Shown: positions 34,124-38,618 of the stretch, piece after piece
Layout: each line of letters opens with the position of its first letter
Numbering within the stretch: position 1 is the stretch's first letter
Origin: Gemella haemolysans
Lineage (GTDB): Bacteria > Bacillota > Bacilli > Staphylococcales > Gemellaceae
DNA length: 64,000 bases
Direction of reading: 5' to 3'
Assembly (NCBI RefSeq): GCF_012273215.1
Contig: NZ_CP050965.1
Span: 1,038,541-1,102,540 of the forward strand
Position numbers and translations under genes: made by a program
The notes under the pieces: generated by a model
The model's database searches: none
The model's input: only the letters and a program-made list of their open reading frames with translations
Told to the model about the DNA's origin: nothing

Positions 34124-34741
34124 ATGAAAAAGAATACTCTAAAAAAAATAACAAGTTTATTTCTTACATCTACATTAATATTTTCTACAATAAGTGCATC
34201 AAGCATTAATCTTATAGAGGCAAAAGGATCATCAGCTAGGCCAAGCGCTTCAAGATCTAGTTCTAAACCTAGTTCTTCTAAACCATCTAGTAGTAAACCA
34301 AGTTCTAAACCTACTAGTTCAACTTCTAGTAGCAAACCAACTTCAAGCACTACTAAGAACTTCACGAAAAATTCAGGTGGTTCATATAATAAGGATTATA
34401 ATAGTTACAATAATCAAGGTTATAAAAAACAGTATACTGACTACATAAATAATAACTACAGAAGTAGCGGTTTCTTTTCAGGAAGTAATATAACGAATGC
34501 ACTTCTATGGTATACATTATTCAGTTCAGCTACATCACACAATCATGTTCAAGTAAGTGATAAGCAAAAAGAGTTAGTCGATAATGTAAAAGATTCCAAA
34601 GTTCCAGTTTATATGCTTGAAATTAAAACTAAAGATGGTGAAACAAAACACGTTACCGTTACAAAAGAACAATATGAAAAAGTTAAAGAAGGAGATAATA
34701 TCTCTTTAAAAGACGGTAATTTAGAAATTAAAAATCAATAA
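34124..34741 (+). CDS. Secreted low-complexity Ser/Lys/Pro-rich protein
   Basis: Length 205 residues. I choose ATG at 34124 (MKKNTLKKITSLFLTSTL), with AAAGGA about 7 bases upstream. A signal peptide ends near residue 35 (SSINLIEAKG). It is followed by a Ser-Lys-Pro repeat region built of SSKPSS units (residues 39-75), a Tyr/Asn-rich segment (NKDYNSYNNQGYKKQYTDY), and a hydrophobic patch NALLWYTLFSSATS. The C-terminal domain YMLEIKTKDGETKHVTVTKEQYEKVKEGDNI is regular and looks folded. Function unknown; no cell-wall anchor. It ends the three-gene group. Confidence 0.75.
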   Translation: MKKNTLKKITSLFLTSTLIFSTISASSINLIEAKGSSARPSASRSSSKPSSSKPSSSKPSSKPTSSTSSSKPTSSTTKNFTKNSGGSYNKDYNSYNNQGYKKQYTDYINNNYRSSGFFSGSNITNALLWYTLFSSATSHNHVQVSDKQKELVDNVKDSKVPVYMLEIKTKDGETKHVTVTKEQYEKVKEGDNISLKDGNLEIKNQ

Positions 34742-34748
34742 CTCATAA

Positions 34749-34788
34749 AAATTAGCCTAAGAATTTTATAATTCATAGGCTAATTTTT
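34749..34788. terminator. Shared terminator of the small-gene group and the MetE-like gene
   Basis: Perfect 11-bp stem AAATTAGCCTA / TAGGCTAATTT, with A and T runs on the two sides, between converging genes. Confidence 0.85.
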
Positions 34789-34790
34789 CT

Positions 34791-35984
34791 TTATTTACAA
34801 TATTTTTCTCTTAATATTTTTGAAGCTTTTACCATATTCTGTAGTTTTTTCCGAATTATTGGATAAGGATTTAGAGGTCTCTTCGAAAATGTTGCAAATC
34901 CACAGTCAGGATTTAGCCATACATTTTCAGGTGGTAAGAATTCCAGAACCTTTTCTACATTTCTCACAATTTCCTCAACAGTTTCAACTCTATCACTTCT
35001 TGGATTTATACATCCAAAACCTAAAATAATTTTTGTATCTAGAAAATTATTATAAAACAATTTTTCCACTTCTCCTGCTCGAGGTGTTGAAAATTCTAAT
35101 GCCAGCATATCTACTTTAAGAGAATCAAAAAATTTCCCAAGTTTATCATATGCTCCTTCGAGTAATACACTTTCATCTTTTGTCCAATTCCCTCTACAAA
35201 CATGCATAATACTCATTATACCTTCATGAGAATTTATTTCATTTAATACCTCAATTAATAAATTCTTTGTAAACTTTAACTCTTTGTCAACCTTGACTTT
35301 TTCTGATAGAGCACCTCAGTAGAAGGAATTATCTGATTTAGAATTAGTAAAGACGATTTCTGATAATATCGGTTCATCTATCTGAATAATCTTTACTCCC
35401 TCTTTTACTAATTCTCTAATTTCATGACGTAAAAGTTTTACTACATCTTCTCCTAGTTCATTTCTACTCTCATAAGAATTTCCTGTAATTTCTTTTAACC
35501 ACATTGATCTAGTTAATAAATATGGACTTGGTAATGTACATTTGAAATGTTCTATTGAACTATTCTTTAGTACTTCTATTTCTAATTTATTTAACCTAAC
35601 TCCGGTATTTATTTTTTCAAAACAAATTGGACTATTCATACTATTATCTGAAGCATCCATTTCTTCTAAACTTTTACGAAAATTTTCATTATTCCCTGTT
35701 AATTCTTTTAACTCTTCAAGAGTTAATAATTTTACACCATCAACTATTTCACCTATGTAACTCATATAGTTATCTCGATTTAATTCGCCGCTAACAATAA
35801 CCTCTATTCCACAATCTTTCTGAAAAGAAATTACTTTATTTGTTTCTTCAATATATTTTTCTAAATACACATTACTATATTTTTCACTTTTCATACTACT
35901 TTCTTTCAACATCAACAGTTCCTTTGATCTCGGCAAACTACCTATTAATGATGTAGTAAAAGGTTTAAACAGATTTTCATCCAT
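34791..35984 (-). CDS. MetE-like (cobalamin-independent) zinc methyltransferase with in-frame TGA: candidate selenoprotein
   Basis: 397 codons in one frame, interrupted only by TGA at 35318-35316 (codon 223). The start at 35984 (MDENLFKPF) has GGAGG 8 bases upstream. It resembles the C-terminal barrel of cobalamin-independent methionine synthase. Seen are KIIQIDEPILSEI near residue 205, MHVCRGN (His and Cys zinc ligands), the later Glu in LEFSTPRAGE, and NPDCGFATF (third Cys ligand). The context is KSDNSFY-TGA-GALSEKVKV. A hairpin with a GG loop follows. I infer selenocysteine. The alternative is a pseudogene with one nonsense codon. It lies downstream of the YedF-like gene. Confidence 0.78.
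35280..35318 (-). promoter_or_regulatory. In-frame TGA and candidate bacterial SECIS hairpin in the MetE-like gene
   Basis: TGA at 35318-35316. On the minus strand GTCAA / TTGAC (35297-35286) pair around a GG, giving a loop read as AGGT, at 24-25 nt after the TGA. A lower CTCT / AGAG pairing (35311-35308 with 35283-35280) extends it. The loop AGGT equals the start of the E. coli fdhF SECIS loop. The stem is short, so support is weaker than for nox. Confidence 0.55.
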
Positions 35985-36049
35985 ACTTAATACCTCCATC
36001 ACCCTAAAGTCCTAAAATTTAACAAAGTTTATATGAAAACTCATAGACG

Positions 36050-36170
36050 CAGTGGTTTATTGATTTAAAAAATATCTTTATTAAAGCTTTTTTGAAATCT
36101 AATAAACTGTGTAGGAGCGACTCCACAAAATCTTGTTTCTACAAAATCACGATTTTTGAGTCGCTCCCTT
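36050..36170. repeat. Inverted repeat between the YedF-like and MetE-like genes
   Basis: GGAGCGACTC (36114-36123) and GAGTCGCTCC (36158-36167) are perfect 10-bp arms, 34 bases apart. GTTTATT / AATAAAC (36055-36061, 36101-36107) lies alongside. There is no T run after it, so it is not a plain terminator. It may be a regulatory leader element or a small dispersed repeat. The gap 35985-36179 holds no gene. Confidence 0.6.
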
Positions 36171-36179
36171 AAAACAATA

Positions 36180-36521
36180 CTATGGTTCAACAACTAGTTC
36201 GCTATTTGACAAAATATCTATTACTTCTGACATAGTTGTTAGTCCACCTACTTTTAAGTAATCAGTTAAGTCATAATAGTCTACACAAATTCCACAAGAA
36301 AGTATTTTTACTCCTCTTAATTCTAGTTCTTTTAAATCTTCTAACGCTTCAGAACCTTTTGCAGTATATTTTACTCCTTCTCCATAAAATATAATATGCT
36401 CTGGTAAGTGTTCTTTTTGAGCAAGAGTATGGATAAACCCTTTCATTAGGTTATCACTTAATTCTTGTTCTCCACTACCCATTCCTGTAGATTTAATAAC
36501 AACATCATATTTTTTTGACAT
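36180..36521 (-). CDS. yedF: YedF-type DsrE-like domain protein (selenium-trait marker)
   Basis: 113 residues, matching the C-terminal domain of YedF (TIGR03527). Seen are KYDVVIKSTGMGSGEQELSDNLMKGFIHTLAQ, LPEHIIFYGEGVKYTAKGSEALEDLKELELRGVKILSCGICVDYY in parts, and DYLKVGGLTTMSEVIDIL. Known members occur in genomes that use selenium. The usual N-terminal SirA/TusA domain is absent; AAGGGGGAC lies just before the ATG, so the gene is complete as a stand-alone domain. Its molecular task is unknown, perhaps selenium handling. It precedes a TGA-containing gene on the same strand. Confidence 0.85.
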   Translation of the reverse strand: MSKKYDVVIKSTGMGSGEQELSDNLMKGFIHTLAQKEHLPEHIIFYGEGVKYTAKGSEALEDLKELELRGVKILSCGICVDYYDLTDYLKVGGLTTMSEVIDILSNSELVVEP

Positions 36522-36731
36522 AATTATGTCCCCCTTAGTTTTTATAATATTTTTATAGAATTATTTCTAATACATATTATATCATTATATATAAAGTTAA
36601 TCTACATCAAAATTAAATAAAGAAAAATTATTATATTTCTAACTATAAAGATTCTATTAAAATAATTTATTTATCTCTCTATATATTAATACAATTTTTC
36701 TATAAATATACAATAATTTTTCTTCATAAAA

Positions 36732-36765
36732 AAACTTTCGAAATAGTTTCCTACTTCGAAAGTTT
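36732..36765 (-). terminator. Terminator of typA
   Basis: Perfect 11-bp stem AAACTTTCGAA / TTCGAAAGTTT, followed by T-rich sequence on the minus strand. The rest of the gap 36522-36773 is AT-rich without a gene. Confidence 0.85.
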
Positions 36766-36773
36766 CTTTAATT

Positions 36774-38618
36774 TTATTCTTCTGAATATTTAGCTTTACG
36801 AGCTGCTTTTTCGCGAGCCGCTTTATCTAATTCTTTTTTACGTAGACGAATTGACTCTGGAGTTACCTCTAAGTATTCATCATCACTTAAGTACTCAAGA
36901 CTTTCTTCTAAAGTCATGATACGAGCTTTTTTAAGTGTTACAGTTTGGTCCTTAGTTGAAGAACGTACATTTGTTTGAGCTTTAGCTTTTGTGATGTTAA
37001 CTGTTAAGTCATTTTCACGGCTGTTTTCTCCAACAATCATACCACCATATACATCAGTACCTGGTTCAATAAATACTGTACCACGATCTTCTAAACTTGA
37101 GATAGAGTACGCTGTAGCTTGACCATTTTCTAATGCTACTAATACACCATTACGACGTCCACCAACACGTCCTTTTTGCATTGGTTGGTAAGAATCAAAT
37201 GTGTGGTTAATAATACCATATCCTTTAGTCATAGACATGAATTCTGTAGAGTATCCGATAAGTCCACGAGCTGGTACATTGAAGATAAGACGAGTTTGTC
37301 CATTGCCATCAGCTTGCATGTCTACCATATCACCTTTACGTTGTCCTAAGGACTCAATAACTGCTCCAACACTTTCGTCTGGTACGTCAACTTGAACACG
37401 CTCAACTGGTTCACAATCAACACCATCGATGTTACGGATAATTACTTCTGGTTTAGAAACTTGAAGTTCGTAACCTTCACGACGTAAATTTTCAATTAAT
37501 ATTGATAAGTGAAGTTCTCCACGTCCACTAACTACCCAAGAATCACTTGTATTTGGTTCAACACGTAATGAAACGTCAGTTTCTAATTGTTGCATTAATC
37601 TATCTTCTAATTTACGAGCTGTAACAAATTTACCTTCCTTACCAGCAAATGGTGAGTTATTAACTAAGAAAGTCATTTGTAGTGTTGGTTCATCAATGTG
37701 AAGCACTGGTAATGCTTCTTGGTGATCAGTTGGACAAACTGTTTCCCCAACGTTGATATCATCCATACCACTTACTGCAACGATATCACCTGCATGTGCT
37801 TCTTGAATTTCTTCACGTTTTAATCCAAAGTAACCGAAAATTTTAGTTACACGGAAATTTTTAACTGTTCCGTCAAGCTTCATAAGAGATACTGATTCCC
37901 CTACTTTCATACTTCCACGGAATACACGTCCAATACCAATACGACCAACATAGTCATTGTAGTCTAATAATGCTACTTGGAATTGTAGAGGTTCGTCACT
38001 ATTATCTTTTGGTGCTGGAACATAATCGATTACTGTTTCATATAAACATTGCATGTTTTCTTCTTGAGCATTAGGATCACTTTCTAAAGAAGCTGTTCCG
38101 TTAATAGCTGATGCATAAACAACAGGGAATTCAAGTTGTTCATCGTTTGCACCTAATTCAATAAATAAATCAATTACTTCATCCACAACTTCTTCTGGGC
38201 GAGCTGAAGGTTTATCAATTTTGTTTACTACAACGATTGGTTTTAAGTTTTGTTCTAAAGCTTTTTTAAGAACGAAACGTGTTTGAGGCATTGTTCCTTC
38301 ATAAGCATCAACTACTAAAAGAACACCATCTACCATTTTCATAATACGCTCTACTTCTCCACCGAAGTCTGCGTGTCCCGGTGTGTCTAGAATGTTAATT
38401 CTCTTACCTTTATAATCAATAGCTGTATTTTTCGCTAAGATAGTAATACCACGTTCTCTTTCTAAATCGTTAGAGTCCATCGCTCTTTCTTCAACGTGCT
38501 CATTAGAGCGGAAAATCCCTGATTGTTTTAATAATTCGTCAACCAATGTTGTTTTACCGTGGTCAACGTGAGCGATAATCGCAATATTTCTAACATCATC
38601 TCTTAATTGTACTGACAT
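36774..38618 (-). CDS. typA: GTPase BipA/TypA
   Basis: Ribosome-binding translational GTPase linked to stress and 50S assembly. Length 614 residues. GTPase motifs: [15 protein letters not shown] (P-loop) at residues 17-31, [11 protein letters not shown] (switch I) near residue 56, [14 protein letters not shown] (G3) near 75, [14 protein letters not shown] (G4) near 130 and [11 protein letters not shown] (G5). The C-terminal domains follow, with [20 protein letters not shown] and [17 protein letters not shown]. Single gene with its own terminator. Confidence 0.97.

Follow-up and report, generated by a model that had tools for sequence, protein, structure and literature searches.

YedF proteins (TIGR03527) are defined by a SirA/TusA domain carrying CPxP together with a DsrE domain. 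This signature was taken from the available sections of PMC5322559, where YedF is linked to SelD, its function is described as unknown, and a redox role is also proposed for its DsrE part. The second group that is close to the locus described here is the methionine synthases, with MetE and the core (folate-independent) enzymes MesA-MesD. The roles of the zinc and homocysteine residues of MetE were taken from the accessible text of PMC7857596. In the accessible part of PMC9312934, the 2022 list of prokaryotic selenoproteins includes an NADH oxidase family, and a family for MetE or for methionine synthase is absent from it. The main text of a 2026 review (PMC13188914), as far as available, does not contain the terms 'MetE', 'methionine synthase', 'YedF', 'Gemella' or 'Lactobacill', and the available portions of PMC5029168 and PMC1794560 name no MetE-like selenoprotein family. 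In the literature collection searched, nothing on point was found for selenocysteine in Gemella or Companilactobacillus or for a MetE-type selenoprotein.

We analyzed a window, meaning the whole stretch of 64,000 nucleotides, from a Gemella-like genome of 2.08 Mb in one contig (G000). It contains a short yedF gene and a MetE-like gene with an in-frame TGA. The short YedF resembled the described YedF in its DsrE half, which carries CGxC and scores above the cut-off, and in its selenocysteine (Sec)-decoding hosts. However, it was without TusA, formed a separate clade, adjoined the MetE-like TGA gene and not selD, and coexisted with a longer YedF. The MetE-like enzyme shared the C-terminal barrel of MetE with the known methionine synthases and kept the zinc set H, C, E, C and the homocysteine residues S, E, D. 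It differed from them by an extra Sec/Cys that was invariant in 25 rows, by scores below the cut-off, and by sulfur-carrier-type neighbours in the loci read. Measured against the available text of these sources, the MetE-like proteins are apparently an unreported selenoprotein family, accompanied by a DsrE-only YedF paralog.

The short yedF gene and the longer YedF

The short yedF gene was located at 36180..36521 on the minus strand. It was an ATG-started open reading frame of 113 amino acids with a DsrE domain only and a CGIC motif (SCGICVDYY). A ribosome-binding site, AAGGGGG, was read from the sequence at 36530..36536 on the minus strand, and its end was 8 nt from the ATG. The protein scored 123.7 bits against TIGR03527 (cut-off 110), covering positions 83-193 of the 194 in the model, and 25.9 bits against Pfam DsrE (cut-off 22.7). 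No Pfam match to a TusA/SirA domain was found at E up to 1, and only the DsrE half of the two-domain signature was present. The original prediction of a stand-alone YedF-type protein with a strong ribosome site of its own was confirmed, with the family cut-off passed on the C-terminal half alone. Identity to seven relatives was 56-87%, and CGIC was kept in 8/8 sequences. Because of this conservation, the open reading frame is judged not to be a chance one.

The predicted structure of the short YedF had a mean pLDDT of 77, and a structure search with this model indicated the DsrE/YchN fold. The model matched YchN (1jx7) with a TM of 0.65 and E of 1.5e-5, and the DsrEFH chain 2hy5_C with a TM of 0.60 and E of 0.08. 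The fold is shared with DsrEFH/TusBCD and YchN, but the short YedF differed from them in its low identity (13-17%), its CGIC motif and its occurrence as a single gene.

Genes for selenium use were found in G000. selD, selB and tRNA-Sec were each above cut-off, and ARAGORN also called a tRNA-SeC; the tRNA-Sec cut-off was passed in 5/14 control genomes too. By this gene content, G000 is a genome that decodes selenocysteine. The earlier claim that the context supports selenium use was borne out by these genes and by the gene next to the short yedF, which very probably encodes a selenoprotein. Named close relatives of G000 include Gemella sanguinis and G. bergeri. Among 15 Gemellaceae genomes, the three components were above cut-off in an identical set of 11. 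A longer YedF with the order TusA-TusA-DsrE was found in all 11 of these, on the same contig as selD and selB and adjoining them. In G000 it had 266 amino acids (its open frames span 268-285 across the family) and was located at L006 (G000:C1:1483393-1484175), with two TusA-like stretches followed by DsrE. By eye, the second TusA-like stretch of this protein seems to be without a plain CPxP. The order in the selenium island of G000 was selD, yedF, a DUF3343-like gene, selB and a desulfurase-like gene (the last two by eye). A selenium island within the window was rejected, since selB-yedF-selD lie at 1.481-1.485 Mb of G000:C1 and the window at 1.039-1.103 Mb.

The short YedF was found in 6/15 Gemellaceae genomes (G000, G001, G006, G007, G008 and G014). 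G013 was 72% complete and G014 66%, and absences in G013 are weak. The short form had been proposed as a marker of the selenium trait, and this did not hold, as it occurred in 6 of the 11 Sec-decoding Gemellaceae, whereas the longer YedF occurred in 11/11. The idea that only a DsrE-like domain exists was correct for this locus and failed for the genome, where the longer YedF is present. Outside the long YedF, a search of G000 with TIGR03527 at E up to 0.001 gave no separate TusA-like place. The short YedF as the split-off half of the G000 YedF was rejected because the longer YedF is present and the clades differ. The supposed splitting off of a TusA-like domain was likewise abandoned: the TusA-TusA-DsrE YedF is a separate protein adjoining selD/selB, and the short form belongs to a different clade.

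DsrE-only proteins were also surveyed in the class. TIGR03527 matches at E up to 1e-15 were found in 27/398 class genomes and in 0/14 control genomes. When the best DsrE domain per locus was taken, the DsrE-only form was present in 26/27 matched genomes with G000 included (25/26 without it), and the full form in two (G258 and G000). The cut-off was passed in six class genomes, in five of these by a DsrE-only protein. A separate deep branch was formed by 22 solo DsrE proteins, mostly with CKTC and nearly all below the cut-off. The DsrE-only form as a rarity was rejected on this survey, which used the domain position within the open frame. The absence of the TusA-like domain had been called unusual; it is not unusual among YedF-like proteins in Bacilli. 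In addition, selD was present in 25/27 class genomes with a TIGR03527-like protein (not in G057 and G281) compared to 96/371 others. As a group, YedF-like DsrE proteins go with selD, as the available text of PMC5322559 has it for YedF. At L118 and L119, a DsrE-only YedF was seen by eye between DUF3343-like and CoA-enzyme-activase-like genes, beside a desulfurase-like gene.

The MetE-like gene and its TGA codon

The MetE-like gene with the in-frame TGA was located at 34791..35984 (from the ATG) on the minus strand. Its predicted structure (pLDDT 76) was a MetE-type barrel, and the comparison with T. maritima MetE (1xdj) gave Z of 34.6 and rmsd of 2.5 with 334 aligned positions. The zinc ligand positions H262, C264, E298 and C362 and the substrate positions S17, E68 and D204 were invariant in 25/25 rows. 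The S, E and D positions and the zinc E and C aligned with T. maritima MetE, and the zinc H and C were assigned by motif only. The best score against the methionine synthase models of NCBIfam was 139.5 bits compared to a cut-off of 406, and none among those listed passed. Since the zinc and homocysteine-binding positions of MetE are kept, the enzyme probably acts on a thiol resembling homocysteine or methionine.

The in-frame TGA was at 35316..35318 on the minus strand and corresponded to Cys in 10 aligned Cys-type homologs. The alignment of 25 rows was composed of 15 of the 17 Sec-type genes (G006 and G007 excluded) and 10 Cys-type genes, with 15 U and 10 C in the Sec column. In the 17 genomes, a single in-frame TGA occurred at one column and the downstream frame was conserved. 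G070 was first counted with one TGA; its 386-aa open reading frame has none inside, and it was assigned to the Cys type. In the structural model, the Sec loop (208-231) had a pLDDT below 50 and followed the barrel strand ending in QIDEP.

A SECIS-like core hairpin, GUCA-AGGU-UGAC, was found at 35286..35297 on the minus strand, with the apical loop starting 22 nt after the UGA. We compared this place in 17 Sec-type and 7 Cys-type rows. The 4-bp stem with its 4-nt loop paired at the fixed place in 17/17 Sec rows and in 0/7 Cys rows, and when the register was shifted by 1-8 nt either way, the full stem was found in 0/17 Sec rows. The arms were of the GUCA/UGAC type in 16 rows, and a compensatory GCUC/GAGC was present in G901 (L176). 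The loop had G at position 2 in 17/17 and was AGGU in 12. GTC made up only 17/383 Val codons in eight window genes, yet it was used in the hairpin arm in 6/6 Gemellaceae rows. The stem, the loop G and the 22-nt spacing agreed with the bacterial rule in section 5 of PMC13188914. As quoted in the text available, this rule also asks for an MFE at or below -7.5 kcal/mol. The window hairpin had an MFE of -4.3 kcal/mol, and 130/200 shuffles folded as well. For eight MetE-like stretches of 42 nt, the MFE was -3.1 to -8.4 kcal/mol, with two below -7.5; the hairpin was in the minimum-energy fold of 6/8, and no z-score was below -0.8. Conservation of the hairpin may come partly from the encoded protein (KVKVD). 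Because the homologs have Cys at this position and the hairpin pairs in the Sec rows alone, once with a compensatory change, the TGA of the MetE-like gene very probably encodes Sec.

Another TGA-carrying gene, NADH oxidase-like (nox), was located at 29689..31050 on the plus strand, with its TGA at 29812-29814 in FMGUGSQS, and was separate from the two-gene block. Its presence nearby had been predicted correctly, with the distance being about 5 kb and not 6 kb. The TGA form of nox was found in 9/15 Gemellaceae genomes; the Nox alignment consisted of the window row and five other U rows.

Cys-type MetE-like proteins of Bacilli are homologous enzymes with Cys at the Sec column and a DsrE neighbour. 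They differ from the window pair by the absence of Sec, by a DsrE that is not TIGR03527 (no match at L109), and by extra TusA and OsmC parts. The MetE profile matched 13 of the 398 genomes of the G000 class, with TGA in G000 and G018 only. Just upstream of 9/11 Cys-type genes in the class sample (L106-L113 and L115), DsrE and TusA-OsmC-like genes were found, and five of these nine loci had a small TusA too in the stretch examined. The nine loci came from several families within the class. At L114, the TusA-OsmC-like gene was the only one. Neighbour families were scanned for L109, L087, L104 and L120, and the others were read by eye. A second Cys paralog type was present in Gemella (L086 and L087) and at L105, L177, L179 and L180. 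Its neighbours were OsmC-like, PhnD-like (Rv1680-like) and acyl-CoA-dehydrogenase-like (Rv1679-like) genes, with no DsrE in the neighbouring stretches read; at L178, an OsmC-like gene stood alone in the stretch read. Since many Cys-type relatives have DsrE, TusA and OsmC neighbours, the pairing of a carrier with a MetE-like enzyme would be wider than the Sec form.

Distribution of the gene pair

The short yedF was just upstream of the MetE-like TGA gene as predicted, on the same strand and 195 nt apart. In Gemellaceae, both genes were present in 6/15 genomes and neither in 9/15. Fisher's test for co-occurrence gave 0.0002 with the 15 genomes and 0.002 with the 11 Sec genomes, both uncorrected for kinship. 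Judged by gene content, the pair is conserved and is present or absent together. Since the identical six genomes carry both, the short form tracks the MetE-like TGA gene in these sequences and not the selenium trait.

A short YedF directly upstream and co-directional was found in 14/17 TGA-MetE loci. These 14 pairs were from six Gemellaceae, four named lactobacilli, and four genomes of the order of G018, which we take to be Lactobacillales. The lactobacilli were Companilactobacillus zhongbaensis, C. versmoldensis, C. mishanensis and Bombilactobacillus mellifer; in each of them, the MetE-like TGA gene came directly after the short yedF. The short-YedF profile matched 13 of 301 Lactobacillaceae genomes; full-length YedF was present in 13/13 and the short form only in G412 and G414, both of them seeds of this profile. 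Among 395 genomes of the G018 order, the MetE profile matched 10, seven of them with an internal TGA. The short yedF was immediately upstream of TGA-MetE in G809, G1005, G925 and G861, the G861 copy being cut by the contig end. In G901, a DsrE-only gene was convergent and there was no co-directional short yedF; G018 had a rhodanese gene just upstream instead, and G769 had no short yedF and a desulfurase-like gene downstream (by eye). Because three of the 17 TGA-MetE genes were without a co-directional copy, the short YedF is not strictly needed. The gap between the two genes was from about 10-30 nt (G925, G861 and G1005) up to 353 nt. In Bombilactobacillus mellifer (L026, 9815-16074), D-proline reductase-like and proline racemase-like genes were seen by eye to adjoin the pair.

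All four named lactobacilli with the short YedF had selB above cut-off. By eye, selB lay in an island in which the end of a selD-like gene adjoined a full yedF, together with a DUF3343-like gene, a desulfurase-like gene and the start of selA. The occurrence of the short YedF in many strains without selD or selB had been named as refuting the selenium reading, and for this clade it was not seen in the genomes tested: selB was present in 10/10 tested genomes with the clade (the six Gemellaceae and four lactobacilli), and selD in the 6/6 tested, the Gemellaceae, all of which had selB.

In a tree, the 14 short YedF proteins formed one clade (100/100) that excluded the full-length rows as well as the convergent DsrE of G901. 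This tree was rooted at the midpoint and left out 7 of the 11 full-length rows from Gemella and all 22 solo rows of the deep branch. With midpoint rooting, the short clade was apart from all full-length rows, and in another tree, with six identical copies dropped, it was sister to the full-length YedF of G623 (96/80). The short YedF proteins of G1005 and G925, from the G018 order, nested among the Gemella rows, which suggests transfer. The protein distances for the short YedF were correlated with those for the MetE-like protein (Spearman 0.66, with 0/5000 permutations as high) in 11 of the 14 pairs, with G006, G007 and the cut G861 excluded. Such agreement is also expected from plain common descent.

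The two-gene block (34742..36727) was absent from G005, G003 and G002, with both flanks kept. Matches to the window ended at 34741 in G005 and G003 and at 34735 in G002, and resumed at 36728, 36729 and 36767 in G005, G003 and G002, respectively. The length between the flanks was 63 nt in G005, 63 nt in G003 and 227 nt in G002. G007 carried the block at the same place as the window. The pair was followed by other genes in G. bergeri (L022) and in L023 than in the window, which indicated that it sits elsewhere there.

Between the two genes, an inverted repeat with GGAGCGACTC arms was found at 36114..36167. It may act as a partial terminator or attenuator, but the prediction gave no terminator-like site. 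Twelve intergenic stretches from the 14 loci were folded, and hairpins were predicted in 9/12 (L021-L027 and L171; imperfect in L022; none in L172-L174). Given these predicted hairpins, co-transcription of the two genes is putative, and the hairpins are perhaps partial terminators that set an excess of the carrier. A plasmid search with the intergenic hairpin gave no match. By tblastn against plasmids, 17 records were YedF-like with less than 60% identity and four were distantly MetE-like. The promoter scan gave 8 sites compared to 12.6 in shuffles, and Rfam gave 0 matches over 34700-36800.

Function of the pair

We consider, with a probability of roughly 0.7, that the short YedF serves a Sec-containing MetE-like zinc enzyme as its dedicated carrier or thiol partner, and that the two form a mobile pair in Sec-decoding Bacilli. 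Since sulfur carriers are frequent beside this enzyme family, the simplest reading is that the short YedF would act as a carrier too. The CGIC cysteines would carry sulfane sulfur, selenium or reducing equivalents to or from the MetE-like enzyme, probably via its Sec residue. The short YedF would fill, in the Sec form, the carrier role that DsrE/TusA/OsmC would have in the Cys form. A more specific model is offered tentatively. In it, the locus might be a two-gene selenium unit in which the YedF paralog hands over or takes up sulfane sulfur or selenium and the Sec-containing zinc enzyme acts on a homocysteine/methionine-type substrate. This could be a carrier-coupled methyl or chalcogen transfer, with a Cys version using DsrE-TusA-OsmC in other Bacilli. 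To our knowledge, such a transfer is known for no methionine synthase relative.

The short YedF might instead be a dithiol reductant of oxidized Sec (a selenenyl sulfide) that carries neither sulfur nor selenium, a role that overlaps with the partner role above. CGxC is a typical redox motif and was invariant in 8/8 sequences, and Sec enzymes commonly depend on a thiol partner. A redox role of the DsrE part, as proposed in the available text of PMC5322559, is consistent with this. However, the DsrE, TusA and rhodanese neighbours are sulfurtransferase types and fit carrying better, which makes a purely reducing role rather unlikely. A general role in selenium metabolism, by selenium delivery to SelD or selenium redox, with the short YedF as a trait marker, is still harder to accept and appears improbable. 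Such a role would agree with the passing of TIGR03527, which is a selenium equivalog, and with the presence of selB (10/10) and selD (6/6) in the tested genomes with the clade. The association of TIGR03527-like proteins with selD in the class (25/27 compared to 96/371) and the tie of YedF to SelD in the text available from PMC5322559 point the same way. However, the short YedF was absent from 5 of the 11 Sec-decoding Gemellaceae, all of which had the longer YedF, and it was tied to the MetE-like gene and formed its own clade. Termination at the TGA, with the MetE-like gene as a pseudogene or two fragments and the short YedF as a bystander, is very improbable: the evidence for Sec is from sequence and the hairpin stability is unremarkable, but 17 genomes share one TGA column with a conserved downstream frame, the homologs carry Cys there, the hairpin pairs and shows a compensatory change, and the 10 genomes in which selB was searched have Sec machinery.

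With the dedicated partner as the preferred reading, a loose selenium marker is replaced by a specific and testable pair, namely a MetE-like selenoprotein and its own DsrE partner. A YedF relative that goes with a single enzyme provides a defined partner for learning the function of the DsrE half. In addition, Sec genes in Gemella and lactobacilli would be cut in two when the TGA is read as a stop.
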